Shown in pieces: positions 98-62,665 of a stretch of DNA of 64,000 nucleotides. The notes below the pieces were generated by a model. It searched no databases. It was not told where the DNA came from and saw nothing but the letters and a program-made list of their open reading frames with translations. The position numbers were made by a program, and so were the translations under genes. The DNA is from Caenorhabditis remanei (lineage: Eukaryota > Nematoda > Chromadorea > Rhabditida > Rhabditidae). The stretch covers positions 4,154,001 through 4,218,000 of the forward strand of contig NC_071331.1 in the NCBI RefSeq assembly GCF_010183535.1. The letters are read 5' to 3'. Positions within the stretch are counted from its first letter, which is position 1, and the number at the start of each line of letters is the position of its first letter.

Positions 98-200
98 TAG
101 CTGGAAAAACCTTTGAAACAGAAAAAGCTACGTCCGAACAAAATGTTCTGCTGAAATCATGGAAAACGGCGTTTTAGAACATTTCTGAATAACAATTTTA

Positions 201-267
201 CTGTTTCTATGCGGTCATTAACCAGTATTTGTCATCAGTAGTTTACTATATTCTTTACAATATATGT
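201..267 (+). ncRNA. Candidate 21U-RNA (piRNA) gene
   Basis: In Caenorhabditis, type I piRNA genes are autonomous units with an upstream Ruby motif (core CTGTTTCA), about 40 nt of spacer, and a YRNT whose T is the first U of the 21-nt RNA. Each candidate below spans the core to the end of the predicted 21-mer; spacing is counted from the last base of the 8-nt core. Here the core is CTGTTTCT at 201-208 and TACT puts U1 at 247, spacing 39. No transcript evidence is available. Confidence 0.55.
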
Positions 268-600
268 GAGCTAGATCTTAGTAGAAAATAAAAAATCTAC
301 AGTTTTTAATTGTGTTCAAGAAGGAAACCCGCATTATGACTTGTTTAAAATGTTGAACAAGTTTTAATTTCTCTTAATTTTTAATCCTCACCAATTTTTA
401 ACATCTGATATTTGCATGGACACCATTGACCCCAACAAAAATACATGGTATTACAGAAAACGTGACACAGTAATATATGTATCTCATCATGCTTGAAATT
501 TTTTTGAAATTTCTGTGTTTTAAAATTAATTTGGAAAATGTGAACGATATGAGAAGCATCATAAAACATTAAAACCAAATTTTGATTTCGAGAAACATTC

Positions 601-668
601 CTGTTTCACACTGCCATTCTATATTGGTGGCTGGGAAAGATAAGCAATTTCAGCATTAATCTACTGTG
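601..668 (+). ncRNA. Candidate 21U-RNA (piRNA) gene
   Basis: Perfect core CTGTTTCA at 601-608; CAAT puts U1 at 648, spacing 40. Confidence 0.7.
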
Positions 669-1301
669 AATGATTATACTGTATCCTGTTTTTTTTTCAT
701 TTGAAATTTCTGATAAATTAAATTAAAAATTAGCAAAGAAAAATGAGAACATTCTCTTGGCAATACAGTTTCACGTGCGCGAGACCAGATTTTTCTTTGC
801 AACGCATTTTTTGACCCCTTTGTTGTGAATGACTTCTCCGAGGCCGATTTTCAGACTTACCTCGAAAAAGAAAGAATTTTAATTTTTATAACCTCTTGTT
901 TTTTTCTGAATGTTTTTAGAAGAATAAACGTTGTTTTTCAAAAAAATGGAGAAAATGTGACGCCGGAATTGCACAAGGACTGTTCAAAGGTCGTAGTTCA
1001 AAAGATGAAAAGTACGAAAGTTGCAAAACAGTCTGCTTTTGAGTATCGTAACCAATCGATATTTTTTTTTTCTAGTAAATAAGTTATAAATCGGACATCA
1101 AAATTATTACAGATTTTTGTTAGCAATTACGAACGGATTGATCAATTTTTGAAAAGTGATGCTTTTTTATGCTTCTAAAACAGAAATTTTCCAAAGGTAT
1201 CTTACTAGATAGCAGAGAAACTCAACTGATCATTTTTGTGAATTTCTAACTACAAATATCATTTTCTATTAGAAGAAACTATCAGAACGTTTCAAGATTG
1301 C

Positions 1302-1368
1302 GGGATCGTAAGAATGGTACGACTGAAGCAGAAAGACATGCTGCAAAATAAAAATGTTACTGAAACAG
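1302..1368 (-). ncRNA. Candidate 21U-RNA (piRNA) gene
   Basis: Perfect core at 1361-1368 (TGAAACAG on the plus strand); CAGT puts U1 at 1322, spacing 39. Confidence 0.7.
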
Positions 1369-1520
1369 AGAAAATTCTCCTTTGATACAAGTTATTAATT
1401 AAATATATTTTTCGCTTTCAAATTATTGTGTTCAATGACCCGATAACTAGAATGAATAGTAATACCTGTTTTTCAGAGAAACTTTGACTAGAGACAGCAT
1501 TTGTAGCAGAAAGTTGTAGT

Positions 1521-1586
1521 GAACTGAACCGTCAAGAAGAAACAATAAAACAATAAAAAATTGTATTTTAAACATTCATGAAACAG
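1521..1586 (-). ncRNA. Candidate 21U-RNA (piRNA) gene
   Basis: Perfect core at 1579-1586; TGTT puts U1 at 1541, spacing 38. Confidence 0.65.
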
Positions 1587-1746
1587 AAAATATCCAATTC
1601 AGAGATTGGTTTGATTGACTGTTTTACTCAAACATTTGTTTGTGGTTGTTTTAAGTGTAGAGAGAGGGCCCAGAAAAGAAGATAAAAGGAACGGGAGTTG
1701 GGAATGTGGTGAGTAGGAAAAATTGTAAATCCCCCTTTTAAAATTC

Positions 1747-1814
1747 TCCTATCTTCATATTTATGAAATGAATAAACTGAAAATAAACCAAATATGCTTA
1801 CCATTTCGAAACAG
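1747..1814 (-). ncRNA. Candidate 21U-RNA (piRNA) gene
   Basis: Core CTGTTTCG at 1807-1814; CATT puts U1 at 1767, spacing 40. Confidence 0.6.
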
Positions 1815-2000
1815 TGACAAAAATGAAAATAGTAATGAAGAAACAATGTTTTGGTAGTTGTCGACCTTTTTGTTTTTCTTACCTTTTTCTGGGGAACTAG
1901 TTTTACACAAGACAATATCGTCGTTTAATTATTCTCTGGGATTCAAAAATCACATTAAAAAACGGATGAAACTGAGAATTCTGGTTGGACACAATAGGCT

Positions 2001-2060
2001 ATACTCAGCCTTGTCACGGGCCGGACCAAACAAAAAAAATTCCTGCCCGGCCCGATATGA
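2001..2060. repeat. Degenerate fragment of the GGCCCGG repeat family
   Basis: The text CCTTGTCACGGGCCGG followed by CCTGCCCGGCCCG resembles the end of the GC-rich TIR family seen complete at 3217-3879. No matching second end was found nearby. Confidence 0.4.
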
Positions 2061-2233
2061 ACAATTTTTCATAGTTTTCGACTAATAATTATAAATTCAA
2101 TCAAAAGGCGAATAAGTTAGAGAATCACAATTACAATTAATCAGCTGTCTCAAGGTATGAAACCTAATCTGATTTTTTGTGACTGCATAGTTTTAATTTT
2201 TCTTTTGGCAGAAGTCGAGAATATACAGTAAAA

Positions 2234-2302
2234 ATTAGCGGGGAACTGAAATGACCAACACCAGAAAAATAATGCTTCATTTTTAAGTGTTATCTGAAAC
2301 AG
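2234..2302 (-). ncRNA. Candidate 21U-RNA (piRNA) gene
   Basis: Perfect core at 2295-2302; TGGT puts U1 at 2254, spacing 41. Confidence 0.65.
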
Positions 2303-2319
2303 ACAATATTTTTTTAATA

Positions 2320-2386
2320 CTGTTTCTCATCTGCATTATAGGAAAAAATTATTTTCTAATGCCGTTGCTCGCAATTCATTCCGTAG
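2320..2386 (+). ncRNA. Candidate 21U-RNA (piRNA) gene
   Basis: Core CTGTTTCT at 2320-2327; CGTT puts U1 at 2366, spacing 39. It diverges from the minus-strand core at 2295-2302, only 17 bases away, so the two would form a back-to-back pair. Confidence 0.6.
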
Positions 2387-2625
2387 TGATTTAAAAAAAT
2401 GATATACCATTCGTTAATATGTAGTACAGGTAAATTTTGCAAAACAAATTTAAAAAATTTCAAAACAGTAACTTTATCACAAAGAATAACAAAATATCCT
2501 AATCGTGAGCTTGAAAATAATCAGGTTTATAACGCATGATTCTTCTTTACCGTAATCCAAAATCAAATCCTATCACGCTCTTCATTTAGGTTGATTCTTT
2601 TAACCACACTCACTGGGACTAGAAA

Positions 2626-2692
2626 ATTAGAAAAAAAATCAATCTAACATCTAAAACGGCACCTGAAAACTTTTATCATGATTGCGAAACAG
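2626..2692 (-). ncRNA. Candidate 21U-RNA (piRNA) gene
   Basis: Core CTGTTTCG at 2685-2692; TGTT puts U1 at 2646, spacing 39. Confidence 0.55.
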
Positions 2693-2929
2693 GTGTTCCC
2701 ACCGAGTTAAAAAAAAGAGAAAACTCAGCGCCTATTGAAAGAAATTTGTTTTTGAATAAATTTTTCAAAGCGCTATAAAACGAGTAAATTTCCACCAAAG
2801 TGATTTTGAAAAAATACGGAGGAGTCGTTCGTAAGATTTCAAAATGAGCAAGTACCGGTGATAAAAATGAGATAAGGATATAAATTTTTATAAAACAGGC
2901 TTTGGTTGATTAATTTCCAATCAAAGTGC

Positions 2930-3073
2930 TAAACCACTTTTTCAAAAATTAACGCTGAAAAAAACATGTTTTTCGAAAAAAAGTCGCTTCACCCGGGCCG
3001 ACCGGGCCGGGCCGGGCCGAGCCGGGCCGGGCCGACCAGGGTGACCGGGCCGGGCCGGCCCGTGACAAGTATG
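2930..3073. repeat. GC-rich TIR element, right portion
   Basis: A run of CCGGGCCGACCGGGCCGG units ends in CGTGACAAGTATG. The stretch from about 2935, including AACGCTGAAAAAAACATG and TCGAAAAAAAGTCGCTTC, matches the reverse complement of 36942-37075, so it is the same family in the opposite orientation. A left TIR was not found; the copy is truncated or its left end has decayed. Confidence 0.7.
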
Positions 3074-3133
3074 GTTTTGGGCAATGAAACACAACAAATT
3101 AACGAAAAAAGTCTTCTGGTTGTACTGAAACAG
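3068..3133 (-). ncRNA. Candidate 21U-RNA (piRNA) gene
   Basis: Perfect core at 3126-3133; TGTT puts U1 at 3088, spacing 38. The predicted 21-mer runs up to the edge of the GC-rich repeat, which lowers confidence slightly. Confidence 0.55.
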
Positions 3134-3216
3134 GTGCTTGTAATTTTTTAAAGCGTTGACGTTCTATTAAAATATTGCATAAAATCGAGTTTTCCAGCAA
3201 TACTGACATCTTATAA

Positions 3217-3879
3217 CATACTTGTCAAGGGCCGGGCCGGGCTTTTTTTTCAAAACTTCCGGCCCGGCCCGGCTCCTCAGGCCCGTCTTTTGGGGGGTAT
3301 TTTTTTTTCAATTAAAAAAAAATTTTTTTTTCGAATTTAGGTAACGGTGGACTAAGTTCAATTCTGATTTTTTCATAGAATAATGTATGTGTGTCTGAGT
3401 ATATTTTCATATCGAAAGAAAATTTTCAAGTAATTTTTTTTCAAGTTTTATAATATAATTACTTTCGCCATTTTTTATTGTTTTCTTCCACGGCTACAGA
3501 AATGCCCAAACTGTTTCGCCGCTCGATCTCAAGGGGGTTTCGACCAAATTTTTATATTCTTTTGATATGAAAATGAACTCACGAAAACACCTAGATTATT
3601 CTGGGAAAAATTTGATTTGACCATAGTACAACTTCAAGTTTTTTATTGCCAGAGGCGTCTCGCAAAAAAATTTAGTCAATCTTTCGAAAAATATACTAAA
3701 TCATCATTAAATAAGTGTAAAAAATGAGCAAATTGGGAAATTTTTCCCCCTGAAAAATTGAATTTTTGGAAAAAATTTGAAAATTTTTCTCAATAATCCC
3801 ATATCCCTGAAAAGAGGGGCCTGAGGGGCCGGGCCCGGGCCAAAGCTTTTCAGGCCCGGCCCCTCATTTGACAAGTATG
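3217..3879. mobile_element. GC-rich TIR element (MITE-like), 663 bp
   Basis: The terminal inverted repeats are CATACTTGTCAAGGGCCGGG on the left and the inverse, ending TTGACAAGTATG, on the right. Blocks of GGCCCGG follow inside each end and the middle is AT-rich. There is no coding capacity. Copies or relatives lie at 2930-3073, 36939-37245, 42463-42687, 51247-51621 and 60058-60311, so this is a dispersed non-autonomous family. No clear target duplication was seen. Confidence 0.7.
3511..3578 (+). ncRNA. Candidate 21U-RNA (piRNA) gene
   Basis: Core CTGTTTCG at 3511-3518; TATT puts U1 at 3558, spacing 40. It sits inside the 3217-3879 repeat element, so it may be fortuitous. Confidence 0.45.
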
Positions 3880-4673
3880 TTTTATAAAACACGATAATGT
3901 TTTGTTACGGCAAAAGCTAACTTTTGTGTTTTAAAAAACAAAGAACACTGGAAAGTCTATATTATGCAGACAGTCGTCATAAATATAAAAGTTGAAACAT
4001 AGAAAAAATTAATAGTATTTTCAGACAAAAGTTTGAAATTCTATCACCAGGTGGGATTTGAGAATCAATTGGTTTATTTTGGTTATATATCAGTTAGATT
4101 TTTTTAGTGAATCAATCCAAAATCTGTTTGAAATCGGCTGTTCACATAAGCTTGAAGTTCCTCAATCGTATGTGTGGTTCAAGAATATCACGTGTATGAA
4201 TCAATCACCATCGGATCAGACACTCGATAAAACATTTCTGAAGCAGATAAATGTATGTTTCATGTGGTTGTGTTGACTGACTACAGATTCAATAATTCGT
4301 TGGTTCAGAGGGGTTAAACTGTTATTCAAAGCTTTCTTTTAAAAAACCTTCAAGATTTTAAAAATCCGCAAAGTGAAGGTTTTAAAATAGTTATAACAAT
4401 AAAACATGAAAAAAATGGCGAAGAATGAAGGAAAGGCATAGACTCACATCGCCCACCGAAAAGCGTTCGAAGTCAAAACGAAAGGTGGCCAAGTTTTCCT
4501 TATGCTGCGATTTTCGCGCCCGGACGCTGGTAAACTGATAATAGTAGAACAATTCAATAAAACCGTTTTTGACCACAATCTAGGCCGCTTTTCATTTTTC
4601 CGAGATGAAAACGTTGAGTGATCCTCTTCCTCAGCTTCGAAATCTTCAAAGAGAAACCTAAAGTAAAAAAAAA

Positions 4674-4739
4674 CTGTTTCAGCATGTGTACATGAGGAAG
4701 GTTTTTTACAAAGTATACTTTCAACATCATCCTTACTAT
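4674..4739 (+). ncRNA. Candidate 21U-RNA (piRNA) gene
   Basis: Perfect core at 4674-4681; TACT puts U1 at 4719, spacing 38. The end of the predicted 21-mer reaches the Helitron-like boundary at 4730. Confidence 0.55.
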
Positions 4740-4870
4740 TAACAAACGCAAACGGATGTATGTTTGTTTGTCTGTCGCCGATCCTACCGCCCTTCTTACT
4801 AAACCGATTTTCTTCAAATTTGGACCAAAAATTCAGAAATTTTCTCTTAATGATGCCCGTCTATTTTTTT
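4730..4870 (+). mobile_element. Helitron-like 5' end fragment
   Basis: It begins TCCTTACTATTAACAAACGC after an A/T and continues with TTTGTTTGTCTGTCGCC. It aligns over about 130 bp with 37900-38035 and more weakly with 63185-63362. A TC-T-TACTA start followed by TGTCTGT runs is typical of nematode Helitron 5' ends (family knowledge). No 3' hairpin and CTRR end was identified, so the assignment is tentative. Confidence 0.4.
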
Positions 4871-4890
4871 AGTTAGAATAGGTCTCGACC

Positions 4891-5240
4891 AGAGTTGCAT
4901 GGAAGTGAAAATTTCTTATCCGGAAGTCGGAAGTCGGAAGTCGGAAGTCGGAAGTCGGAATTAGATTTTTTCGCGAATATTCAAAAACTCCAAGAGAAAA
5001 GATCATAAAATTGACGGAAAACAGTGGAAAATTAGGTTTTGGATGAAGAAAAGCCAATTTTCTCTCCTTTTAGACCATTTTTTCAAGTATTTCTGCGAAA
5101 TATACTTTTCGGAAATTCCACAGTTATGGGATGTCGGAAGTCGGAAGTAAAATTCCTTATCCGGAAGTCGGAAGTCGGAAGTACAATTCCTTATCCGGAA
5201 GTCGGAAGTCGGAAGTCGGAAGTTATTTTTCTTATCCGGA
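4891..5240. repeat. GGAAGTC minisatellite TIR element, copy 1
   Basis: It starts AGAGTTGCATGGAAGTG and has tandem 7-bp GGAAGTC units at 4921-4961, 5134-5150, 5161-5182 and 5198-5222, separated by AT-rich DNA. The inner segment (reading TTTTTCGCGAATATTC, TTTCTGCGAAATATAC) is shared with 6306-6665, showing two insertions of one element rather than simple repeat expansion. Confidence 0.65.
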
Positions 5241-5247
5241 TACGTCA

Positions 5248-6305
5248 TAATGTTTTATCGGAAGCAATTGCATAAAACCTCTTTCAAGCTGAATAAATGG
5301 TTGAAAATAATAAGTCAAAACCGCAAAAACACCGTTTCATGTTTGTTTAATAGGTTTTCTGAGCAAAAGTAATTAATTGTAGTCAAATAAATTACGGATC
5401 ATTAAAAAACAATAAGTTGCCCGCGTACGAATACGGGGTGATAGGGTCCTTATACAATATGACGCCAAATACACAGTTTCTTACAATAAATTTACTTTAT
5501 TGCAAGAAAATAAATAAAGAGAGCGATAAACTTACAAAACAACCAACGCTAAAACTAGAACTAACTCTGAAAGCCAACCGACTCCAGAAACTACTTGTTG
5601 CCACGTGGAGTACACGTGTCCACGTGAACTGACGCGCTGAGGTTACGGTAGGCGCGTGAGCTTTTGGCGGAGTGTCGTTGCGTATTTATTGTGGGGACTC
5701 GGAGAACTACAGGGTTATGAGGGTACCTTGCCACCGTCAACTAATAACTATTCCAACAATAACATTCTGCCAAAACAGTGGGTTTTGTTAGTTTTTCAAA
5801 ATTCGATGATTAGCATTAAAGGGCACGGGATTAATATTTGCAAAGAATATATAATATAAAAACATAAAACGAAACAGGTAAACTGGGACGCTGTAGGACA
5901 ACAAAGCAGTGATTCAGCAAATACACTTCTGGCAATTGCAAAAAATTAAGAAGGCCATTTGTTGCCCGTTTTTCATTCTTGAATGAAAATTAATAAAGAA
6001 ACATCAAGAAAATCTGCGTTTGACCCAAGTTCAGTGAGAATACTGGTGAGAGAAGCAACTCTCGATAAGTAAATAAGCCAACTGGTCGCCGCCAGTAACA
6101 AGCCTAAAAATTGCAGTTATAACTAATCAACATAATGTCAAAAACCCAGATGGGTTATTCGACAATAGGTAAACAGAGCTGTGGTGCAAGGTCTAATATG
6201 ATGCCAAACTAAAATGAATTTTAAAATAAAAGTTGTTTAAGTTACTTAAAATTATCTTAATGGTTTGACGGTTGTGGGGCTCATCGGTTTCTGTTATCCT
6301 TGCAA
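5248..6305. other. Non-coding spacer with a GC-richer block at 5410-5720
   Basis: I see no gene. The block at 5410-5720 is less AT-rich than its surroundings, holds AATAAA-type signals and a CACGTGTCCACGTG palindromic segment at about 5612, and could be an old solo LTR, but no TG...CA boundaries or target duplication are clear. A variant piRNA core (CCGTTTCA) lies at 5332-5339 with a YRNT 38 nt downstream. Confidence 0.4.
5810..5877 (-). ncRNA. Candidate 21U-RNA (piRNA) gene
   Basis: Core CTGTTTCG at 5870-5877; TAAT puts U1 at 5830, spacing 40. Confidence 0.6.
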
Positions 6306-6665
6306 CAGAGTTGTGCGGAAGTGATTTTTTCTAAAACAGAAGTCGGAAGTCGGAAGTAAAATTTCTAATCCGGAAGTCGGAATTGAAAAAACGCCCGGAA
6401 GTCGGGAGTAGCTTTTTTTCGCAAATATTCCAGATTTCAAGAGAAAAATCATGAAACTAGCTAAAATCATTGGAAAGTTGGTTTTTGGCTGTAGAAAAGC
6501 TTATTTTCTATCCTATTTGATCATGTTTTCATGTATTTCTGCAAAATTTATTCTTCCTAAATTTCACAGTGTTCGAATGACGGAAGTCGGAAGTAAAACT
6601 CCTTATCCGGAAGTCGGAAGACGGAAGTGAAAAATTCCCGGAAGTCGGAATTCCGCGCAACTCTG
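6306..6665. repeat. GGAAGTC minisatellite TIR element, copy 2
   Basis: It begins CAGAGTTGTGCGGAAGTG and ends GGAATTCCGCGCAACTCTG, which is an imperfect terminal inverted repeat. GGAAGTC units lie inside both ends and the core matches copy 1 (4891-5240). It is non-coding and probably a MITE. Confidence 0.65.
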
Positions 6666-8108
6666 CCTTGCAATATTGCAGGTGTTCACTAGAGAAATGA
6701 AAAAAAACCTTTCAGTTTCATAAAAATTATATCCGAGATATATGGCAGAGTCAATAATGCATACACCGTTATTTTTGTTTATATTAAACGTCATGATATT
6801 CCCATTACCCCGATCATCTTAATCCTTTCCTCTTTCATGTTCCAAGTTTCTCATGTATCGATCGATATTGCATACAAGACAGTGTGAATAAGTGTGACAT
6901 CACCTTGTAAGCGTTCCCATCTAATCCCTTATTCCAAAGTATCTTCTCATATTTACTGCGTTTCGCGCGGAGAGCACGCAGTCACACTGTCATTCTCACG
7001 CATTTTTGCGACATTATACCGTGAGCAGTCCCTTTATATTGGTCGGTTATTGTTCTCTCACTTCCGTCTATCGATTGTAAATTTGTATTGTGCTAGTTGT
7101 AAATCTAGGTAGTATTTAGTTGAATTCGACTATCTTTGAGAGTTAGTCAAGACACAGTGTCATAGAAAACTATATGCAGCATCTCCGCGCCAAAATGTTT
7201 TTGATGATTTCGATATTTTTTGTGCGGGGTTTAACCGAAAAAGAAAGAACAACAAGCTTCATTCAAAAAATTCAACTCCCTATTGTCCGTTCACGCTACA
7301 AGCACGCGATTTGGCTGAGCGGCGACTCACCAACTGGTGTGCAAACGCGCTTCACTAGAGTTCCGGCTTCGCGGGAAAATAATTTGAATTCACATGGATT
7401 AAAAATGACCCTGTGCCACGGTGTCTGAGTGTCCCATACAGGGTTGAGCGGAATTCAGCCATCCGACCCCGTCATTTTAAGATTTTTTTCGTCTTCCGTC
7501 TAGAGGTTGCCAGCTTGAAAAATTTGTGCGCCGCCTACTCGAATTTACTGATATTTTTAAGATTTTTTGCAGCAAAGCTATCAGTTTCAGTTTTTCCGAA
7601 AAAACGGAATTTAGCACCAGTATAACCATCTTAAGAGCTTTTTACCACTAAATTAGACCAAATCGTATTTCTACACTGACCAAACATCTTTAAAAGCGCA
7701 TATGCCTAACTTAAGTGGGCGGAGCTAACAACTTTCCGCCATTTCAAAAAAACCCGCATTTTGCTCAACTCTGGTCCCATAAACTGATTTTCTGTAGTTC
7801 ACCGCCAATAACGAAAGTCCCATTATTTTCCACTGAAAAAATTTGCTAAACTTATAGACCTGCAACAGTAATATATCGCCCTAGCAAAATGCTTTTTTGT
7901 TTTGATCTACCGGTTTCTTGTTGCCCGCTAATTATTGACTCTAGTTTGGCTACGTCGAGTCTTTTTGCGCACGCGTTGCACGTCAGGGGTTCACAGGCAA
8001 TATATTTTTTTTTGAAAATAAAAGATTGTTTCATGTCGATGATATCAGCTTTTCCACTTTATTAATTTTTTAATGACGTCTTGCCGTTCCTCAACTATAC
8101 ATAACAAT
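6666..8108. other. Upstream region of the T-box gene
   Basis: No supported gene. The stretch 6890-7640 is richer in GC than the surroundings and holds short ORFs that show no recognisable domain. TCAACCCTG/CAACTCTGG-like words at 7440 and 7770 may be remnants of the TIR repeat family above. The last 250 bases probably hold the T-box promoter. Confidence 0.4.
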
Positions 8109-8116
8109 TTTCAGTA

Positions 8117-11157: not shown

Positions 11158-11159
11158 GT

Positions 11160-51621: not shown

Positions 51622-51755
51622 CGGTTAATTTTGAGCGTATCAAACAATGGAATTTTCATGTCAGATCATCAGTTTCACAACAATCAAAGTGAATAGTCAA
51701 AGATTTGTGCTACTTTTGGAACAGTGATTTGTGGTTTTACGACATTCTGATTCAT

Positions 51756-52606: not shown

Positions 52607-52672
52607 TAATGTACCTCTCGAGCAAAAACAGAAAATGATGTAAACGCATGAATTATGGCAGGTTCGAAACAG
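52607..52672 (-). ncRNA. Candidate 21U-RNA (piRNA) gene
   Basis: Core CTGTTTCG at 52665-52672; TGTT puts U1 at 52627, spacing 38. Confidence 0.5.
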
Positions 52673-52759
52673 TATGTTGAACATTTTCTACAATTGTTTT
52701 CAATAATTTGAAAACGACAACGCTAGGAAACTTATTTTTGCTTTCAAAAAATTACATCT

Positions 52760-52825
52760 AGGTGGATAACAGAAGAGCCATTACAGATAAATATTCATTA
52801 ATATTTTAGAAAACGTGGGAAACAG
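52760..52825 (-). ncRNA. Candidate 21U-RNA (piRNA) gene
   Basis: Core CTGTTTCC at 52818-52825; TAAT puts U1 at 52780, spacing 38. Confidence 0.5.
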
Positions 52826-53516
52826 AGATTTCGGTCAATATCTGTAATGATGAACTATCGGTTCACACACAAAAGTTCACAATTTGCCGCGCATAACACT
52901 CTGCAAACTACTGTCCAATTATATCAGGTAGTTGTAACAGAGATCTTGGTTTTAAATAACTTATGCAATCAAATATGATACTTTCAACTTTCTAAATAAA
53001 TCACGGTTACAGAAAATGTGTTTAAAATTTGGATGATTATTTCCAGAGAAAAAAAATGAATAAAAGGATCACTTTTGTTAAAAAACGATAGGTACTTTAC
53101 GTTCTCATCAAAACAGTATTATGAGTTTTTTCATTTTAGAAATCCGATTCCAAGTTTTTTTGGTTTCAGTTTAGTATGTTCAACAATGAATTTTACAAAA
53201 CTGAATTTTCCAGTTCCAAGTTGTTAACACAAAACCTAAAGCATGTTGAGATTGATAACTTATGAATGGTGGTGAATGCGAAAGAAATAAAATAGATAAC
53301 CGGTTTCATCGACATTGTATGGTCTATCCAATAACTTTTGAAAACTGATTCTTCGATTTTCTTTCGTATTTATTTCTGAATACTTGATGCTTTGAATATT
53401 CTATGCGCTTAATGATTCTCCCATTTTTGAGCCGTGTTTTTTATAATTCAGCGTCACGGGTTTCAACAACTTGCAACATAAAACTTGTCCAACATTATTG
53501 AATTTGGTTCGAGAAC
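52826..53516. other. AT-rich spacer
   Basis: I see no gene, complete repeat or CTGTTTC core here. Confidence 0.5.
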
Positions 53517-53518
53517 TA

Positions 53519-53790
53519 CCGTAAATACTGTATTATAACGGCACCTGTAATAGAACGGCACCTGTATTATAACGGCACCCCATCTACACTCAGAATTCAT
53601 GAATATGATAAGGCCGGTGTTTTTTCTTGGTTCTGATTAGAAGCAGCGTGATTGATAACGTCTTGATCAACGAAAAGAATGCCCAAAAAAGGTTTTTCGT
53701 TTAATTTCAAGGAGTTTTTGAAACTACAAAGTTTCTCTCGGATGCAGTTGAAAAATATAACGGCATGCCGTTATAATACAGTATATACGG
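53519..53790. mobile_element. Tc1/mariner-type MITE, 272 bp, with ATAACGGCACC repeats
   Basis: The ends are CCGTAAATACTGTATTATAA and the inverse TTATAATACAGTATATACGG, flanked by TA on each side. Inside the left end, three units of TATTATAACGGCACC type are repeated. It matches the truncated element at 1-97. No coding capacity. Confidence 0.75.
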
Positions 53791-53792
53791 TA

Positions 53793-54664
53793 TATGATGT
53801 TGTTGAAACTTTTTAAAAAGTTTGCCGCAAACATTGGGGGAAACCCTTGTCACACAATTGAATGTCATCAAATAACCTTTATCTCGAAAATTCGAAACAG
53901 GAGTGTTTTCAATAGCACAGAAATGTTTCCAAGTGCTGTCAGGATAGTGAGATTTATACAAAATACGATATTGCATAGTAAGACAAAATCTTGGCATCCT
54001 CACAATCAGCAACATAAAAATTTTAAAATTGAATGCACGTCAAGGTGAAATTGAAATAAAAAAGTCTAACATTATTGAATTTGGTTCGAAAACTATATAA
54101 TGTGGTTGAAACTTTAAAAAAAAAGTTTGCCGCAAAATCTTGACATCCTCAGCAACATAAAGATTTTTAACAGAAAAACTCAAACCAGATTGTTTGGATA
54201 ATCAACAAATTCTGAAAGCATTCCATTTCGTTCTGTTACATAACATTCATGAAACTGAATATTATTTTAGTTTTACGTTACTCACAAGGTGTAAAGGTGT
54301 CATGTGGTGTAATATATATTCATCAAAACGTTAAAAGTACTCCTATTGAAATGAAAACATCAAACAGCAATTGGGAAATTATAAATCCAACTATCAACAC
54401 TCACTATAAGGTTCTGAAGCAGAAAACATATCGGAACGTAGGACCACTGGAAGTATACATGACAGTTTTTATTAAAATTTATAAAATTTAGAAAGGGTTC
54501 ATTTAAAACAGCTATCGGCATAATAAATAAACTTGATGAGAATGTGTTTGGTAGTAAATCAAAAGAACTGTTTGGAACAAACAATTTGAAAGAAATTGTT
54601 CTAAAATTTTCTAAAGATTTGTATTTCTTTTGGTTTTAAAATATTAACCCGCAATGAGTTTATC
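53793..54664. other. AT-rich spacer
   Basis: No supported gene. Two similar segments (53793-53850 and 54085-54150, sharing GTTGAAACTTT and AGTTTGCCGCAAA) show a local duplication. Confidence 0.5.
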
Positions 54665-54732
54665 CTGTTTCACAACCTGCACATCAGCATTTCTTTTTCC
54701 TGTGATACCGTTAACCCAACCTTTTATATATA
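54665..54732 (+). ncRNA. Candidate 21U-RNA (piRNA) gene
   Basis: Perfect core at 54665-54672; CGTT puts U1 at 54712, spacing 40. The predicted RNA runs into the AT microsatellite. Confidence 0.6.
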
Positions 54733-54749
54733 TATATATATATATATTC
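54725..54749. repeat. TA microsatellite
   Basis: About twelve TA dinucleotides in a row. Confidence 0.9.
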
Positions 54750-55023
54750 ATTTTCAGATACAGTGTATATATCTGATGTGGCTACGTAACGAGGATGACC
54801 ATATTGATCTGTATCCAAAAATTGTATTCTATAAATAAATCCCGTTTTTCGTGCTTTTTATCAGTGATATCACACAAAAAGCTCTCACCCTCGAGTAACC
54901 TCTTTACTATTCACTCAATTTCTTCATACGAAGATTTATAATATTTTTATTACATCTAGACAAATAAAATTTAACACAATTATAAAACGGTCAAAAATAA
55001 ATATATCCAAATCATCCTAAATA

Positions 55024-55665
55024 TCAACCAGAAAACCCGTCGGTGCCAATCTTCCAATCCTTCCTTCCATTTCTTCTTTTTTGATCTTTTTTCTTCTTTG
55101 ATCTGAATTTTTTTGGTTTGAATTCCCCGGACTTCTTCTTTGGCTCTGGTTTTGATCTCGACTCCTGAAGTCTCAATTCCTGCGCCAATCGTTTGTTTTC
55201 TTTCTTCAACCAGTGAATTGCAACTGTTTCTGGGCTCTTCTTGATTGGAAAGGATTGTTTTTCCAGCTCGGAATCCTGATCCTCATCTTCTTGCTCCTCG
55301 ATCTCCTCTTTGATATCCCTAAGAACTCTCGGCGTGTCTGGCTCAGGTATCTCTTGTTTCACAATACCAGTCAGACCCTTCTGCTCGCTCAGAGACTTGA
55401 TCAATTTGTTCGCATCGTCGAGTCTCTTCTTCAACTGCTCGCTCATTCGCTTTTCAGTTCGCAGGTTCCGAACGACTCTCTCCAGATTCTTGTGATATCT
55501 GGTCTTCATGGAGAGGAGTTCGAGTTGTCTGGAAATAATTCATTTGTTGGAAAATGTTAATTGTGGTAATTTCCCTTACTTCTCACGGTTTTCCCGTTCT
55601 TCCTTCAGAAATTTCTTCGTGAGGTTTGACGCCATGGTCTTATAGTGTTGGAGTTGGTAGTACAT
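55024..55665 (-). CDS. Small charged coiled-coil protein, function unknown
   Basis: There are two exons on the minus strand: 55665-55580 and 55528-55024, with a 51-bp intron, giving 196 residues. The start was chosen because TTTTTTCAG lies 22 bases upstream (around 55690), a good trans-splice acceptor. Residues 1-75 are predicted coiled coil (FLKEERENREKQLELL, EKRMSEQLKKRLDDANKLIK). An acidic stretch (KEEIEEQEDEDQDSELE) follows, then a second short helix and a very basic tail (KFRSKKKKDQKRRNGRK) suitable for nuclear localisation or nucleic-acid binding. No known domain. A TTTATT (AATAAA in sense) at about 54944 can serve as polyA signal. Confidence 0.8.
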
Positions 55666-56663
55666 TTTTCAGTTGAGTTTTGTTCTTCTGAAAAAATACA
55701 ACTGATATTCACCAAAAATAGGAAAAAAGGGAAAGAAGAAAACCAGAAAATGGTGTACAGACCCCTAGAATGAGGTAACTTGACAGTGGAGGATCAATAA
55801 GTCGTCCTCTTATTTAGGTGTCGTGTGCGCGCGCTTATTTTTGACCTATACTGGCATCCTCCGGGAGAATGCAGGTTTATAACATTTTTTTCGCTATATT
55901 ATCGAAATAAAAAAGTTCCGACATTTTTTCCTCGTCGGTGTTTGCGGACTCAAGCCAAAATTATCAAATTTTGGCTTGAGTCCGCAAACACGCAAACACA
56001 ATAGAATTGTTCAAGACCGGTTTCTTTCGAATCGATGTATTCCGCTATGAGACTAGTAAATGAAACTGTATGAAAGTTCTTTCAAAATATATATTAAACA
56101 GTAATTATCTCATTGATAACAATGCATTGAATCGCATTTGAGAATGACTCCGGGGCGTTTGAGAACAGGAAGCCACGAAGTTTCACCACTAAACATGAGA
56201 AAAATTACTGAAAAATGTCACGTAAATTGTTTTTAAAAAAACCTTATTGTGTAGATATTTTTTCACGTTTAGTTGGGAAATGTCAAGTTACCTGGTTTAC
56301 AAACGTCATGGACCAGAGAGAATTGACCACATCAGTTCAGTCAGGTTTTTTTGCTAACCACATTCAGAAAATTATTATTCTACAGTTTCAAGAGATAGAG
56401 AAATTTGTACACTGTGATAGACACCCAATATATATTTTGTTCTGTTTTAGCGATTTTCTTCATTAGCTTTTTATGCAAAAAAAATTATTGATTCATCATA
56501 ATCTTCGAAAAGAAACCACTCAATTTTTGAAAACATTCTCAAAAAAAATTATTGTTTTCAAGTATTGGTTGATAATAATAATAATGAGAAAAAGTAAAAA
56601 TTTCTGTTAGAATATCGTGATGTTATATACACTTCTGTATAAATTTGTTGAAGACGTAATTCA
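55666..56663. other. Upstream region of the coiled-coil gene and spacer
   Basis: It contains a 25-bp perfect hairpin at 55938-55991 and a GCGCGCGCTTATTTTT block at 55827. No further gene. Confidence 0.5.
55938..55991. repeat. Perfect 25-bp hairpin upstream of the coiled-coil gene
   Basis: Arms 55938-55962 and 55967-55991 (GTGTTTGCGGACTCAAGCC and on) are exact reverse complements around the loop ATCA. It may be a small foldback element or a regulatory structure 270 bases upstream of the start codon. Confidence 0.75.
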
Positions 56664-56731
56664 CCAGTCCAGAGAGAGATGGTATCAAGTGTTCCAAACC
56701 TACACACACATTAAAAAGATTTTTGAAACAG
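56664..56731 (-). ncRNA. Candidate 21U-RNA (piRNA) gene
   Basis: Perfect core at 56724-56731; TGAT puts U1 at 56684, spacing 40. Confidence 0.7.
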
Positions 56732-56920
56732 TTGCAAAAATGTGTTTCATGTTTTTCGGAAATAGCGACAAAACTATTAGAAATTAATATTGTAAAAGAA
56801 TTTTTGGAATCATTAATATTTTTAAAATTTTTAAGATTCCTGATTTTTTTCATGGTTAAAAAAGTTGGTAATTTGGCAGCCCGTTATTCTTATTGTGAAG
56901 GACTCCTAACAAAATCCATA

Positions 56921-56987
56921 CTGTTTCTATCTCTGCTAAAAAGGGTAAGGTTTTTTTTAGCATTGTTAACCAGATCCTTACGTTCGC
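56921..56987 (+). ncRNA. Candidate 21U-RNA (piRNA) gene
   Basis: Core CTGTTTCT at 56921-56928; TGTT puts U1 at 56967, spacing 39. Confidence 0.6.
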
Positions 56988-57085
56988 TAGAAATAACCGA
57001 TTTCAAATTTTCACAGTTCAAGTGTGCCTAGATTCCTATAAGTTGTTAACAATTTATCATTCTCATGATTTTTTAATTCAGACTT

Positions 57086-57152
57086 CTGTTTCAAATTTAA
57101 GTCTAATTCTTATTTGGTTTTAGTTGAACGCTACCGATTTAGCTGCGTCCAA
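57086..57152 (+). ncRNA. Candidate 21U-RNA (piRNA) gene
   Basis: Perfect core at 57086-57093; CGCT puts U1 at 57132, spacing 39. Confidence 0.65.
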
Positions 57153-58605
57153 AAAACTTCGGGCACTAAATAAATTACATTAACTTTTTATGAAAACTGG
57201 TTGAAACATATTTTTCTCGTTGTTAATTGAAACTTTTTCAGCTTCAGTAAGATTGTGTATCCCTGAGTTCGGCGGCTTCAAGAAATCAAACATCTTGGTC
57301 ATTCTCAACGTAGTTTTCTGATGTTTTTAGACTATATTTTCATTTTTGTCACTAGTATATTTTAGTTCTGAACTTTTCTAAAAGTGTATTTAGACTTTGG
57401 CACTCCAGGCATCTCCACATTGATAGGATACAGAAATATCAAAAAGTTCAAAAATCACCAAGCAGAGAAAAACGTGACTGGTAATTTTCTTTCTCAGAAA
57501 ATTGATGAAAACTTATGAAAAATGCAAAATCAAATAATATTCCAACAAATAAATTGATGAAAATCTGAAAAATATCTGATTTTTACAGATCCATCTGAAA
57601 ATAGTGATATTGCGTTTTTGAGATCTCATAACTTTAGAAAAAAAGCATTATATGTTTTTATACTTGGTGAACATATTAATTATTGTTAGGTGAACTCATA
57701 TACAAAGTTTCTTGAAATTTTGAGACTTTCACTTTTTTCACCATGGAGGGGGGTACGTGAAAATTTCGTGAAAAAACACACATTTTTGCTTATAGAAAAA
57801 AAAGGTCGCGGAATTTTGGGATAAAAATTGGCACAAAGTTGGACGGTCTAAAGACAATCAAACTGCAATAAAAAACTTTTTTAACCTAATGAAAAAAATA
57901 TTGGGGGTATGCAAAAAACTGTTCATTTTTTTCAAAAATCTATTTTTTCTGATTGATGCCAAAAGATTTTTCAAAAATTGTCAACACAAAAAATGTTCAA
58001 AAACATGCTTAAAACTCATTTCTGAACTTTTTTTTCAGATATCAGTTGAAGGGAAAAAATTAATTTTTTCACTCCCCCGATTTTTTTCTATATGTCAAAG
58101 GGGGCGGAGCCTAAAAAGCTGTACGGTTTTTTCATAAGGTCATCATATGGACCCATAATATCAAAAAACCAAATGGGCTAATCGCGTTTGGCCGATGTGT
58201 TCTATGGGCAGTTCGAGAAATACTGACATTGTCTCTTAAGTTTCAAGTGGCAGTTACTGATGTCAGCAGGCACTTTGAATAATTGCATTTCTTGTCCTCT
58301 TAATTCATACCTCCTTTTAATCGAAATATTTAAACTTTGTTCCCTTCATAATACCTTTATTTTTAGCCTGAACGTGTTATGAAACACTTCTCTCTATTTT
58401 ATTCCCCTTGGTTTTTGTGTTGTCATGCACCTGCCCTTCCCGTGGCACAACATCGTCAACATTTCAGTTTTAACCTGAATCATTCCAGCTGCAAAATTGG
58501 TCGATTTTTGAGCATAGAAGTGAGGAGACTAACCAGTTATTAAGGGTTGCACCTGTCTTCGAGTTAGAGAATTTGTGATTTATTCTGTTCATCTATCCGA
58601 TTTCA
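57153..58605. other. Spacer upstream of the sru gene
   Basis: No gene and no CTGTTTC core. The sru promoter is expected in the last few hundred bases. Confidence 0.5.
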
Positions 58606-58617
58606 AACTTCAGTTCC

Positions 58618-61600
58618 ATGTCCTTCAACTCAACTTTATGGCCGAATACTATCCATTTCAATGAGACTTATATGAATTACCGTATCCAATGGAACGGTTG
58701 GCCTCAAATATGTGCAGTCCTTCCCTGGGTTTACATACTTCCAAGTTTCCACGTCATCTGCAAGATATTCTCAGTCTACCTATCGGCTAACTGGACCCGA
58801 CCAGAGCCAGGATTGAATCAACATGTGTTTCTAGTGATTTCATTATCACAACTCACTGTTTTCATCTTTTTCTTATTCGATTGGTTTATGGTTCGACTTC
58901 CGTCTACCGGGTTGTTCACTTCATGGTGTGCTTCAATTGAGCCAAATCATTTTTTGAAGTTTATATTCATGATGGCGTATTACACAAATTATTGTGCAAT
59001 GATTTTTCCGTTTCTGATGCCTGTGGTGAGGTTGGTGGTGGTCTCGTTTCCAAGGAATCATTTTAAGGTGAGGATGACCCAGGGGGGAAGACCTGGAACA
59101 GTAGGTAATCATAGATCTGTTCATCTATAGAATTTCGTACCGACAGAAATTAACAGTATTGGCACTGTTGGACCAAAATTGTTTCTGTAACATAAATTTT
59201 CGGTTTCATTGAAATAACTTATGTGCTTGAAGTTTTCTAAAAGTGATTATTTTAGAACCAAAGTTTCAATTCGGTCCAGTCGGCTTTGGTCCGACCGCCG
59301 ACCGACCGAGCCGACCAAGGTCCGCATTTTGTGCGTGAAAAGTTTTTATGTATCTACGGAAGTTTTTTCCACAAATTTCAGAATTTTCCGAAATTCAATT
59401 TGTGTCTAAGCGCCTTATAATATTCAAAAATTAACTATAAGTACATATAAGCCGTTTTTGAAACAGAAAATTTATAACTTGGTGGTATTTTTCAAAAAAA
59501 AGCCGGGGATTCCGATTGTTACCAATGTAGATGAGTGATACATTAGACTAATTGTAAGACTGCTTTTGCAACAAAAATTGTCGGTTCCATTTTAAAAATT
59601 TATGTTTATGAAATTTTCTAAAAACGATTCGATCGGTGGTAGTCGACTTTAGAACTCGGAAAAATATATCTGTTACAAAATAAAGCTATGACAATACAGA
59701 ACAGACAATAATAGAACTGAACAGAGTGGAACTACGAAAAAATGGAACTGCTACAAAATAGAACCCATAAGCATTTTTAAAGCCAAAACTAGAGTTATAT
59801 TTTATAAAAGTTCCATTTTGTAACAGTTCCATTTTTGTCTGTTATATATTGGCACAGTTTTATTTTGTCACAGTTCTATTGTTGTTTGTTCTATATTGTT
59901 ACAGTTTTGTTTTGTCAAATTCTATTTTTTCCGAGTTCTAAAGTCAAACACCAACCAAAGACAATAATAATATCATTCAAAACGTTAACTAGAATAATAT
60001 CATTCAGAACGTTAACTAGAATTATAAGCCTTTTTGAAACAGAACATTAATGATTATCATACTTGTCAAAAATAGGTACCCATTTTTACCAATTTTTTTG
60101 TTTGGAATTTTTCGAAAAAAAAACAGTAAAAATGCTTAAATTATCATACATATTCACATTTTGATTCAATTTTAAATGTTTATTCGAAAACTATACTTTT
60201 TTCAAAAAATTTCCAAAAAAAGTTCAAAAACTCAAAATGTTTTGAAAAAATGTTTCAAAACGGGTCGAGATTTTTCCTGATTTCGGCCCGGCCCGGCCCG
60301 TGACAAGTATGATGATTATTATGACATTTTGGAAAAAAAACCCCCGGTGTTTCCGATTCTAGATGTGTGACAGTTTTTATTGTTTTTTCAACAAGAATTT
60401 TCGGTTTCATTTAATATATTTATCTTTATGAAATTTTCCACAACCAATTTTCTCATGGGATTTTCATAGTTCCAGTAGAGTCAGGTTCGGAAGCATTGAG
60501 GGTTTCATTTTCAGTCCTGCTGTAATATGGCTGGTGTCCATAATCTGAATCCCAACTCACACTAGAACAGACTAAAATATTTACGGTTCTGATTCGCTTT
60601 GATGAGATTAAGGACAGCACCGTGATATAAACTCTTTCAAAATGCTGTGCCTGATGAAAAATTTCAGTGACTTGAAATATAATTACTCTTTGTAACAGAA
60701 AAATATGAGTTGGAGACATTACGGACTCAATAAAAATATTGTTTTGAAATATAGAAAGCGCTTCTATTAGGGCATAAGAGTATCAGTTTATAATTGGACC
60801 TCATGAAACAGCTTTCGTTTTCCACTAACTATAATACTTTCCACGTTTAACGATTACAAGTATTTTTTATTCCAGTTTATAAACATATTGAAACAGTATT
60901 CTAAATCTTTTCAATTTTTTACGCTTTCAAAATACCCTTGAACAGATCACAAATCCCGCATAACTTAATTTCTTTTTATATTCAATTTGCAGATAAACTC
61001 AATTCTCCTGCGCGTCAGTGTGCCTCTCATCTGGCTCTATCCCCTCTGTTTCACCTTTTTCCTTATTCCAGCCGTTGGTGTTTGCCGTCAAATTAGTAGT
61101 CCATATCCGTTGGGCGCGATTCATATTTATTATGCAAATGCTGCGTTTGGGGTAAGTAGAAGTCATAGGCAAAAAAAAATATTCAAAAATTTATCCTCAA
61201 ATGTTTTGTGATCTCGTTGAAACCGGTGATGTTTGATAACTGTGATCATAGAAAGTGCTTCAAAACCCAGTAATTTTTAAAGAAAAGTTATAATTACCAC
61301 TTTCATAAAATTTTTTTGCAAATGAAAACTTAAAGAACAAATAGAGTCACCGCGCGCCAAAGACACCCCAGACCCAGATTTTCTATATTTCCAGCTCCGA
61401 AATTCATATTTCTACCTCTACAACACTATTGCATGGGTCACACTTGCTATTCTGGCCAATATTCTTTTATTCCTGAAAGTTGCAAAGGCTAGAGCGCAAC
61501 TCATCAGTTTCCAAAAAAGTGCAGTGTCTTACAAAGCGGAATTATCGATTACAATTACTACTGTGGTTATGATACTTTTCTATGTTATCAATGGAAGTTT

Positions 61601-61854
61601 TATAGTGAGTTTGTTACTTGATAATAGAAGTTTTTTGTTTAAATTTTTATTTCCAGATAATTTATGTCCTGTACTATGGTACAAGTTCCTATTTCTCGTT
61701 TTTGGTTATCGTGAAAGCGTTTGCAAACGACGCGGAGACTTGTGTTGTTCCGTGGATATTCTATTTGACTCATCCGGTATTCAAGAAAAAAGCAATCAGT
61801 TGTGATTTGGTATTCTCAACGAGTTCATTTAAAAGACGGATTAATAATAGTTGA
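58618..61854 (+). CDS. Serpentine chemoreceptor, class U (sru) family
   Basis: Four exons, 58618-59067, 60993-61151, 61395-61604 and 61657-61854, join in phase 0 to 338 residues, the usual size of the family. The ATG follows AACTTCAG by 4 nt, a trans-splice-like acceptor. Family features are NQHVFLVISLSQ, TSWCASIEPNHFLKF, YPLGAIHIYYANAAFG and ETCVVPWIFYLTHPVF near the C-terminus. Seven hydrophobic segments fit a GPCR: for example WPQICAVLPWVYILPSF, LTVFIFFLFDWF, CAMIFPFLMPVV, VPLIWLYPLCFTFF, IAWVTLAILANILLF, ITTVVMILFYVING and the last in exon 4. Such receptors sit in sensory-neuron membranes and detect chemicals; ligand unknown. No frame breaks are seen, so the gene looks intact. The first intron (1.9 kb) holds two MITEs and candidate piRNA genes. 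An AATAAA is at 62080-62085. Confidence 0.85.
59399..59466 (-). ncRNA. Candidate 21U-RNA (piRNA) gene in the sru intron
   Basis: Perfect core at 59459-59466; TATT puts U1 at 59419, spacing 40. Antisense to the host gene. Confidence 0.65.
59635..59957. mobile_element. MITE related to the AAAATAGAACTG family, in the sru intron
   Basis: The ends GGTGGTAGTCGACTTTAGAA and the inverse (TTCTAAAGTCAAACACCAACC) are inverted repeats with mismatches. The arms hold ACAAAATAGAAC and its inverse several times. It is a diverged relative of 23448-23940; no clean 8-bp duplication remains. Confidence 0.65.
59976..60042 (-). ncRNA. Candidate 21U-RNA (piRNA) gene in the sru intron
   Basis: Perfect core at 60035-60042; TATT puts U1 at 59996, spacing 39. 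Confidence 0.65.
60058..60311. mobile_element. GC-rich TIR element in the sru intron, 254 bp
   Basis: It starts CATACTTGTCAAAAATAGG and ends GGCCCGTGACAAGTATG. The left end has lost its GGCCCGG block; the right end keeps it. Confidence 0.65.
60746..60811 (-). ncRNA. Candidate 21U-RNA (piRNA) gene in the sru intron
   Basis: Perfect core at 60804-60811; TAAT puts U1 at 60766, spacing 38. Confidence 0.65.
60829..60896 (-). ncRNA. Candidate 21U-RNA (piRNA) gene in the sru intron
   Basis: Perfect core at 60889-60896; CGTT puts U1 at 60849, spacing 40. It lies 85 bases from the previous core. Confidence 0.7.
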
Positions 61855-62029
61855 TGTTATACTTTTTTTCGAATATAAATTGTGGAAGAACCCGATTGAA
61901 AATTAGGAAAATCAGTGGAATTTTACAATTTTCTAAAACAGAAAATTTTATTTTCAATAGCATTTTTTCCTACTGCTTGAGAATGAGATCATTCATTTCA
62001 AAATTTCAAAAAATGATGGATATAATTGT

Positions 62030-62665
62030 TTCTTTACATCTAACACTGTCATATTCAATCTCTGAAATGTAACCGTTTCAATAAATTATTAGTTTCACTA
62101 CAATGACTTTATTGCTTCAATTGTAGAAGCGCGGGATAGTTTGCAATAATGTGAATATATCAGATCATGATTTATCATGAAGTAAACAAAATAAAACTGT
62201 GATAAGGAATTAATAAGTTTAGCATGTTACTGAAATAAATCCTCAGGACAGGGCGGAAATTATTTGTATAGTTTGTAGTGTTCATTGTAATGAATTATCC
62301 AGTATGCGCACTGTTGAACTAATGATGTGCCTCTAATTTATCGAAATTCTAAAACAAATTTGATTACTTCATGTTTTTTACGTTTTTTCTCTGTTTCTCT
62401 GTTTTAACATTTTTATTTATAGAATAATAGTTTCGCTACGTCAAACACTGTCTTACTCGAACACTGAAACTGTGACTTTTTCAATATATTTATATTTTTA
62501 CTATATTTTTGTTTCCATAATGGTGAACTGCTAGGTTCGATTTTGTTCAAATCTATTATTAAGTTCAAAATGTTATTGAAATGAATCCTTAAGAGAATGC
62601 GGAAACTATTTGTATAGTTTGTAGTGTTCATTGAGATACATTATCCAGTATGCATTGAAAAACGG
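62030..62665. repeat. Local tandem duplication downstream of the sru gene
   Basis: The segment around 62220-62310 (TTGTATAGTTTGTAGTGTTC and the following ATTATCCAGTATGC) recurs at 62565-62655, and the flanking AACACTGTC and CTGAAA text also recurs. The unit is about 350 bp and diverged. Confidence 0.6.
62391..62459 (+). ncRNA. Candidate 21U-RNA (piRNA) gene
   Basis: Core CTGTTTCT at 62391-62398; CGCT puts U1 at 62439, spacing 41. Confidence 0.5.

Follow-up and report, generated by a model that had tools for sequence, protein, structure and literature searches.

The closest described systems are the type I Piwi-interacting RNA (piRNA, here 21U-RNA) clusters on chromosome IV of Caenorhabditis elegans. 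Parts of two papers (PMC3597512, PMC6436959) describe them as thousands of independent units in megabase domains, each with the core CTGTTTCA, an A/T-rich spacer of ~35-42 nucleotides (nt) and an RNA that starts with U. A minimal C. elegans cassette, consisting of a roughly 50-nt upstream part and the 21-nt sequence, suffices according to a portion of PMC3597512, and pausing signals of RNA polymerase II (Pol II) have been established elsewhere for piRNA genes (part of PMC6436959). By analogy, both features may hold alike in Caenorhabditis remanei, a species that makes 21U-RNAs, 2-3 times more than C. elegans (PMC6468775, in a passage on Shi et al. 2013). The DNA analyzed here, referred to as the window, is the 64-kb stretch 4,154,001-4,218,000 of chromosome IV (C4) of C. 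remanei PX506, whose genome comprises 130,466,896 bases. The same arrangement of core, spacer and predicted initial U is found in it. We consider it very probable that the window is part of a left chromosome IV type I piRNA cluster, in which blocks were duplicated and the guide was replaced in a subset of the copies, while the promoter was kept. The cluster itself is an already known kind of system.

Predicted 21U-RNA genes and their distribution

The word CTGTTTC occurs 68 times in the window (28 on the plus strand and 40 on the minus strand) compared to 12.1 expected from dinucleotides, and CTGTTTCA occurs 35 times compared to 4.1. An initial annotation of this DNA had arrived at ~60 CTGTTTC cores by hand, close to the actual count, but its expectation of about five, implying a 12-fold excess, was too low for 64 kb, and the excess is 5.6-fold. 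A YRNT places its T 38-40 nt past the 8-nt core in 46 of the 68 cases (background 20.8%, p = 1.3e-16) and 37-42 nt past it in 54 (background 37.4%, p = 1.7e-12). The initial annotation had given ~50 cores at 37-42 nt, a chance level of ~40 percent and a preference for 38-40 nt. Each predicted unit has a Ruby-type core in A/T-rich flanks, followed after a spacer of ~38-40 nt by a YRNT initiator and then by a guide of free sequence. As is characteristic of type I genes, the Ruby core, either CTGTTTCA or a GTTTC-type variant, lies ~40 nt upstream of the predicted RNA start, and the T of the YRNT is the predicted first base of the RNA (U1).

A weight matrix comprising the core, its A/T-rich flanks, the spacing and the initiator was trained on 15 tiles of chromosome IV, with the window left out. 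Labels such as L026 denote stretches of DNA sampled outside the window; tile L026 was left out of the training because its 15-bp tandem repeat had drawn off a first matrix. In the window, 108 sites score above 14 bits, 73 of them on the minus strand and 35 on the plus strand. Shuffling the sequence 100 times leaves 6.1 sites on average (at most 14), and 2 each are found in the reversed window and in 50 kb from five other chromosomes. Above 16 bits, the corresponding numbers are 77, 1.8, 0 and 1. The shuffled control, which the initial annotation had named as a check, therefore supports its reading. With 63% A+T in the window and a T-rich motif, the excess might be supposed to arise from base composition or chance. 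This explanation is practically negligible, because the dinucleotide expectation, the 100 block shuffles, the reversed window and the DNA from other chromosomes each yield only a small part of what is observed.

The exact CTGTTTC core is present in 48 of the 108 sites and the central GTTTC in 86, so that a count of exact cores overlooks about half of the sites. After subtraction of the shuffled counts, the number of genes is about 102, 126 and 142 at thresholds of 14, 12 and 10 bits, respectively. Roughly 100-140 type I piRNA genes, on both strands, is the estimate predicted from the sequence. The original assignment to a type I cluster stands as far as motif, initiator and spacing are concerned, whereas the 50-60 genes proposed with it are too few. 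The minus strand is favored (p = 3.3e-4), as the earlier figures of about 31 against 19 had indicated. Strand runs along the window (55, compared to 48.3 expected) are no longer than chance and reveal no structure. The first base of the core is C in 94 of the 108 sites and A in 10. In C. elegans, a core starting with C favors the male germline (part of PMC3597512); most of the genes would consequently be of the male type, if this rule applies in C. remanei.

Two long terminal repeat (LTR) elements inserted in the cluster occupy 19.5 of the 64 kb (31%) yet contain one of the 108 sites (p = 5e-16), and outside them the density is 2.4 sites per kb. The Ty3/gypsy-like element, which serves as an internal control, has none. 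The sole internal site, at 30296 on the plus strand (15.1 bits), is in the BEL/Pao-like element and probably arose by chance. A dispersed repeat or transposon family, instead of piRNA genes, might also be proposed as the source of the motif, because some exact CTGTTTCA words on other chromosomes fall in repeats and L026 shows that the motif can be imitated by a tandem repeat. However, the units of the window have core, spacing and initiator in common while their guides differ. Furthermore, none of the 108 cores is in the dispersed repeats at 36931-37256, 51258-51621, 53514-53797 and 57306-58239 or in the palindrome at 46541-48502. A repeat family is thus a scarcely credible source of the motif.

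Along chromosome IV, the number of sites above 14 bits per 10 kb is 0, 0, 4 and 1 in the tiles at 0.1-1.07 Mb and 10-39 in those at 1.38-6.19 Mb, although the L026 count is inflated by its tandem repeat. The sites are therefore clustered in domains of chromosome IV, as type I genes are, with C5 and C6 represented by 20 kb of tiles. The 14-mer TACTGTTTCAAAAT is found at 251 places genome-wide, compared to 6 for its reverse. Among the matches listed (100 of the 251, in contig order), 2 are on C1, none on C2 or C3, and 98 on C4 up to 23.45 Mb, where they are dense at 19.4-20.4 and 23.1-23.45 Mb, with further places at 7-13 Mb. The region C4:23.1-23.45 Mb constitutes a denser, right-end domain of the chromosome. 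Within it is the 10-kb stretch L039 (C4:23364001-23374000), where 38 sites exceed 14 bits; most are on the plus strand, and they have a longer, TTACTGTTTCAAAATTT-like motif in common and differing guides.

The C. elegans clusters are at 4.75-7.5 and 13.5-17.5 Mb according to part of PMC9683057. Unlike these, the sampled C. remanei domain starts near 1.4 Mb and extends beyond 6.19 Mb, and there is a dense right-end domain at 19-23.5 Mb among the TACTGTTTCAAAAT matches listed. The same part of PMC9683057 places the C. briggsae clusters at 9.8-12.0 Mb of chromosome I and at 0.02-7.1 and 13-15 Mb of chromosome IV. C. remanei is similar to C. briggsae in having a long cluster on the left of chromosome IV and a second cluster in which strong A/T-rich motifs surround the Ruby motif. 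It differs in that no cluster was seen on chromosome I, with 2 of the 251 TACTGTTTCAAAAT places on C1 and this one word tested.

An Rfam scan of the 64 kb gave no matches above the gathering score, and a tRNA scan of the window was empty. The combination of motif, initiator, spacing, density on chromosome IV, depletion from the LTR elements and conservation between paralogues (see below) amounts to strong sequence evidence for independent 21U-RNA genes, whose expression as 21-nt 5'U RNAs, PRG-1 binding, short capped precursors, dependence on PRDE-1, SNPC-4 and TOFU-4/5 and H3K27me3 chromatin are predictions. The earlier proposal that each is a separate small transcription unit fits the published description of type I genes.

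Divergence of guides and flanks in paralogous copies

The DNA of the window is paralogous to chromosome IV at ~3.08-3.21, 3.62-3.67 and 4.59-4.67 Mb, mostly with 75-98% identity. The segmental duplication that includes the window has about four copies on chromosome IV (at 3.1-3.2, 3.65, 4.2 and 4.65 Mb), one of which is 98% identical over 4.5 kb. In the comparison with the young copy L043, near-identity gives way abruptly to a far more diverged 0.28 kb (window 52890-53173), much as a gene-conversion tract would end. Within the DNA sampled, paralogues exist for 135 of 452 units and for 96 of 451 control sites; the excess is modest because whole segments are duplicated.

Pairs of copies were collected for 515 sites above 14 bits from the window, the 15 tiles and six further loci, leaving out the known repeats of the window and L016. 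Anchors on both flanks placed each site on its paralogous copy and the stretch between them was aligned, with no score needed for the second copy. This resulted in 75 pairs, and 194 control pairs at random sites were handled alike. In the core, 15 of 600 positions (2.5%) are different, compared to 140 of 1552 in the controls (p = 1.4e-8), and U1 differs in 1 of 75 pairs (1.3%) compared to 20 of 194 (p = 0.011). In the guide (+1 to +20), 21.6% of positions are different (substitutions 16.8%, gaps 4.8%), whereas the control value is 9.7% and the flanks differ at 7.8%. Differences in the other regions are 8.3% (-60 to -6), 9.8% (YRN), 12.5% (+21 to +25), 8.3% (+26 to +30) and 7.4% (downstream), and the random-site controls range from 8.7 to 10.3% in all regions. 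A conserved promoter with an unconserved guide, another property of type I genes, is thus found over the 75 pairs, the exception being the core in the paralogue L045, which differs at 5 of 40 positions.

The guide is more diverged than the flank in 37 pairs and less in 21 (p = 1.0e-5), compared to 61 and 110 in the controls (p = 0.067). When the pairs are grouped into 55 families, the numbers are 27 and 13 (p = 1.3e-4) and the guide/flank ratio is 2.80 (95% range 2.17-3.56). The pairs differ from the controls in a Mann-Whitney test (p = 2.4e-7) and in a permutation stratified by flank divergence (p = 2e-4), and a guide difference of at least 0.3 is present in 30 of the 75 pairs but in 15 of the 194 controls. 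The ratio is 2.40 if only window sites are used as first copy (43 pairs, p = 0.014) and 2.50 without L017 and the window (60 pairs, p = 0.005). In a two-rate fit, the fast segment extends from -1 to +22 (bootstrap medians +1 and +22, 95% ranges -9 to 4 and 17 to 28). These results support, but do not settle, the conclusion that the guide diverges faster than its flanks.

For the gene at 1302..1368, 13 of 20 guide positions are changed relative to two paralogues, which are identical to each other here and whose flanks are 3.5% different. L045 carries a 25-nt insertion in the guide corresponding to the gene at 52607..52672, where 6 of 20 guide positions differ and the core and U1 are the same. 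The guide of the gene at 48722..48788 is the site of the sole multi-base replacement in window 48705-52890 relative to L043. In the 17 pairs with the largest guide excess, the second copy still scores above 14 bits in 12 (0 of 194 in the controls), so the promoter often survives a swap of the guide.

Many of the units could instead be relics, in which a promoter is present but little or no 21U-RNA is made. The scores do vary, the second copy reaches at most 14 bits in 22 of the 75 pairs (5 of 17 and 17 of 58), and the core of L045 is not conserved. Nevertheless, the core and U1 are kept well beyond the flanks over the 75 pairs, which renders this explanation quite improbable.

It is less easy to dismiss the fast divergence of the guides as an artefact of sampling or alignment, although we consider this unlikely. 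Few segments are involved, and anchoring in the flanks lowers flank divergence, as is seen in the control flank windows. However, the bases adjoining the guide are equally unanchored, yet are at the baseline, and the random-site controls are flat, as are decoys of 7-9 bits treated alike (core 0.089, guide 0.102, flank 0.097 in 31 pairs). A separate analysis made earlier from BLAST alignments (39 pairs, 331 control sites) gave the same profile, with values of 0.299 for the guide, about 0.13 for the flanks and 0.145 for the control guide.

Several observations weigh against the guide result or the units themselves. The effect was noticed in a first set of pairs, with which the second set overlaps, and the result rests on 75 pairs, 55 families and few duplicated segments. 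The 45 pairs with a guide difference below 0.3 have no excess (ratio 0.80, control 0.75), so that guides seem to have been replaced in some pairs and not worn down in all. For the 42 pairs with loci added after the effect was noticed, the guide value is 0.100 and the flank value 0.051, with 11 pairs above and 15 below (p = 0.42). L043, whose alignment over 48705-52890 contains 15 events in 4.2 kb, contributes 18 of the 42; for the remaining 24, the values are 0.171 (guide) and 0.083 (flank), with 9 pairs above and 10 below (p = 0.20). In L045, the last locus added, 21 of 80 guide positions are changed in four usable pairs, 3 of which are above the flank, and U1 is the same; the pair at site 52520 was dropped because homology begins at window 52471, inside or before the guide, leaving the guide unanchored. 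The L045 core, counted over all 5 sites, is no better conserved than its surroundings (12.3%). Together, the 28 later pairs give 0.184 and 0.087, 12 above and 11 below (p = 0.059), so that independent support is marginal, though in the same direction. Where flanks are less than 5% diverged, strongly changed guides number 4 of 33 compared to 2 of 53 in the controls (p = 0.20). Bins between 9 and 14 bits contain 4 to 15 pairs each and give no significant result; the ratios are mixed in the four bins with enough pairs (5 to 15 each). Finally, the GC content is 33.6% in the guide and 31.2% just downstream (p = 8e-4), a weak Pol II pausing signature; the downstream low-melting signature is less pronounced in C. 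elegans than in P. pacificus, according to part of PMC6436959.

Block replacement in the youngest pairs was considered separately and is not claimed. Its p value is 3.5e-4 relative to the flanks, which anchoring depresses, but 0.20 relative to the control guides.

Diversifying selection is, in our view, the most likely cause of the apparent fast guide divergence. The main alternative is a local mutation process, in which transcription, pausing or break repair at piRNA genes would introduce complex replacements into the transcribed 22 nt, and selection would do no more than keep the core, initiator and U1. Net length changes in +1 to +30 are found in 22 of the 30 pairs with a guide difference of at least 0.3, but control sites with block changes change length equally often (12 of 15). 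Also in favor of this alternative, the 15 events in L043 consist of one 12-column replacement, which falls in a guide, plus 14 single-base changes, of which two lie in guides. On the other hand, the end of the fast segment is close to that of the mature 21U-RNA rather than that of the precursor, although the bootstrap range of 17-28 covers both. There is also no sign of a template in the guide's own flanks, where the longest match averages 6.6 nt for replaced guides and 6.9 for unreplaced ones, compared to 7.1 at other loci (about 6.9 without 31 draws that hit the guide's own locus). Genome-wide, the two guides tested, taken from the 17 most changed pairs, have no donor within 2 mismatches, and one of them has two 3-mismatch places on C2. 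Strong motifs without an initiator are represented by 5 pairs, too few to be informative. We regard a mutational origin as unlikely, though far from negligible, and diversifying selection as the preferred cause.

LTR elements, repeats and genes in the window

The positions of the predicted piRNA gene blocks, the LTR elements and the best-scoring or notable genes are listed in Table 1. A short imperfect palindrome with CTGTTTCA-like, inward-facing cores at both ends has two copies in the window (51782-51821 and 52475-52520).

Table 1. Predicted piRNA genes, gene blocks and LTR elements in window coordinates (scores in bits, from the weight-matrix scan)
Feature	Position	Strand	U1	Score or remark
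Left block of predicted type I piRNA genes	201..12036	.		25/108 sites >14 bits; parts paralogous to chromosome IV 3.62 Mb, 4.59-4.63 Mb
Predicted piRNA gene	1302..1368	-	1322	22.2
Predicted piRNA gene	1521..1586	-	1541	22.0
Predicted piRNA gene	2237..2302	-	2257	21.7; guide strongly altered relative to L020
Predicted piRNA gene	2626..2692	-	2646	20.7
Predicted piRNA gene	4674..4739	+	4719	19.8
Predicted piRNA gene	11336..11401	+	11381	19.3
Young Ty3/gypsy-like LTR element	12096..21789	+		LTRs 99.77% identical; terminal 4-bp repeat gtct; gag, protease domains
Predicted piRNA gene block separating the two LTR elements	21850..24476	.		12/108 sites >14 bits
Predicted piRNA gene	22798..22863	-	22818	19.1
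Predicted piRNA gene	23329..23396	+	23376	19.2
Young BEL/Pao-like LTR element	24595..34437	-		LTRs 99.31% identical; terminal 5-bp repeat aacag
Main block of predicted piRNA genes	34782..62771	.		70/108 sites >14 bits; parts paralogous to 3.10-3.21, 3.65-3.67, 4.65-4.67 Mb
Predicted piRNA gene	37818..37883	+	37863	19.3
Predicted piRNA gene	39478..39545	+	39525	20.6
Predicted piRNA gene	39673..39739	-	39693	19.1
Predicted piRNA gene	42802..42868	-	42822	19.7
Predicted piRNA gene	44230..44296	-	44250	22.9
Predicted piRNA gene	44789..44854	-	44809	20.5
Predicted piRNA gene	45184..45250	-	45204	21.7
Predicted piRNA gene	46437..46502	-	46457	22.5
Predicted piRNA gene	48722..48788	-	48742	16.9
Predicted piRNA gene	49217..49282	-	49237	20.6
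Predicted piRNA gene	49894..49960	-	49914	19.8
Predicted piRNA gene	50326..50391	+	50371	20.0
Predicted piRNA gene	51007..51073	-	51027	22.5
Predicted piRNA gene	51157..51224	+	51204	19.7
Predicted piRNA gene	51756..51821	-	51776	19.3; core faces inverted CTGTTTCA at 51782 (+)
Predicted piRNA gene	52607..52672	-	52627	18.2
Predicted piRNA gene	54665..54732	+	54712	21.3
Predicted piRNA gene	56664..56731	-	56684	19.9
Predicted piRNA gene, top score	59399..59466	-	59419	25.1
Predicted piRNA gene	59976..60042	-	59996	20.9
Predicted piRNA gene	60402..60468	+	60448	19.0
Predicted piRNA gene	60829..60896	-	60849	21.3
Predicted piRNA gene	61875..61941	-	61895	20.9

The BEL/Pao-like element contains Pao peptidase and reverse transcriptase domains and a strong match to Phlebovirus_G2, the phlebovirus-type G2 glycoprotein. 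The Ty3/gypsy-like element has a weak Monjiviricetes_fusion match, under Pfam's cut-off. When 471 predicted 21U-RNAs were compared with the two LTR elements, 1 antisense match without mismatches and 2 with 3 mismatches were obtained, compared to 3 with 3 mismatches for shuffled guides; the perfect match is taken to be the site inside the LTR element itself. A proposal that piRNA clusters evolve towards mobile elements was reportedly made by Bagijn in 2012.

The palindrome at 46541-48502 (1.96 kb) is nearly perfect, 93.5% self-complementary, and is also present in L016; it is probably a foldback-type DNA element. A dispersed repeat of ~530 bp (window 37893-38425) is related to a tandem array at C4:4724628-4728939 with units ~119 bp apart. 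Short tandem arrays of CCGGG, CCGGC and CGGAAGT are located at 2993-3062, 42479-42511 and 4921-5240, and no 7-mer of the window is more over-represented than CCGGGCC. A nuclear-receptor-type gene occupies 40506-43454. Its zf-C4 zinc finger runs across two frames at 40.8-41.1 kb, and its paralogues on C6 are ~75% identical. The frame downstream of zf-C4, which has no Pfam match, presumably resembles a receptor ligand-binding domain. Exons of Sru-type chemoreceptors are at 58579-61805.

Possible origin of new guides

In the proposed mechanism, segmental duplication would copy blocks that carry many units, after which some of the copies would receive a new guide but keep their promoter. Diversifying selection would then favor new guides, acting on a promoter that tolerates almost any 21 nt placed behind it. 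Such tolerance leaves the guides free to change, but does not explain a change faster than that of the flanks. Nematode type I piRNA genes might even form a germline-encoded diversification system, a reading that we judge slightly less likely than not. Promoter-guide blocks would be duplicated and then only the 21-22 nt guide would be block-replaced, several times faster than neutral DNA, by selection, local mutation or both, with the core and U1 kept.

Among the titles and abstract openings listed by a literature search, there was no report of 21U guides diverging faster than their flanks, and the parts of the papers examined contain neither a piRNA gene map of this window nor a comparison of guides with flanks. 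If guides do diverge above the local neutral level, new guides would be favored or actively generated, and the comparison of copies would provide a test for real piRNA genes that is independent of reads. It would also be a partial answer to how new piRNA genes originate, a question left open in the relevant part of PMC9683057: a promoter block is copied and its guide is swapped.

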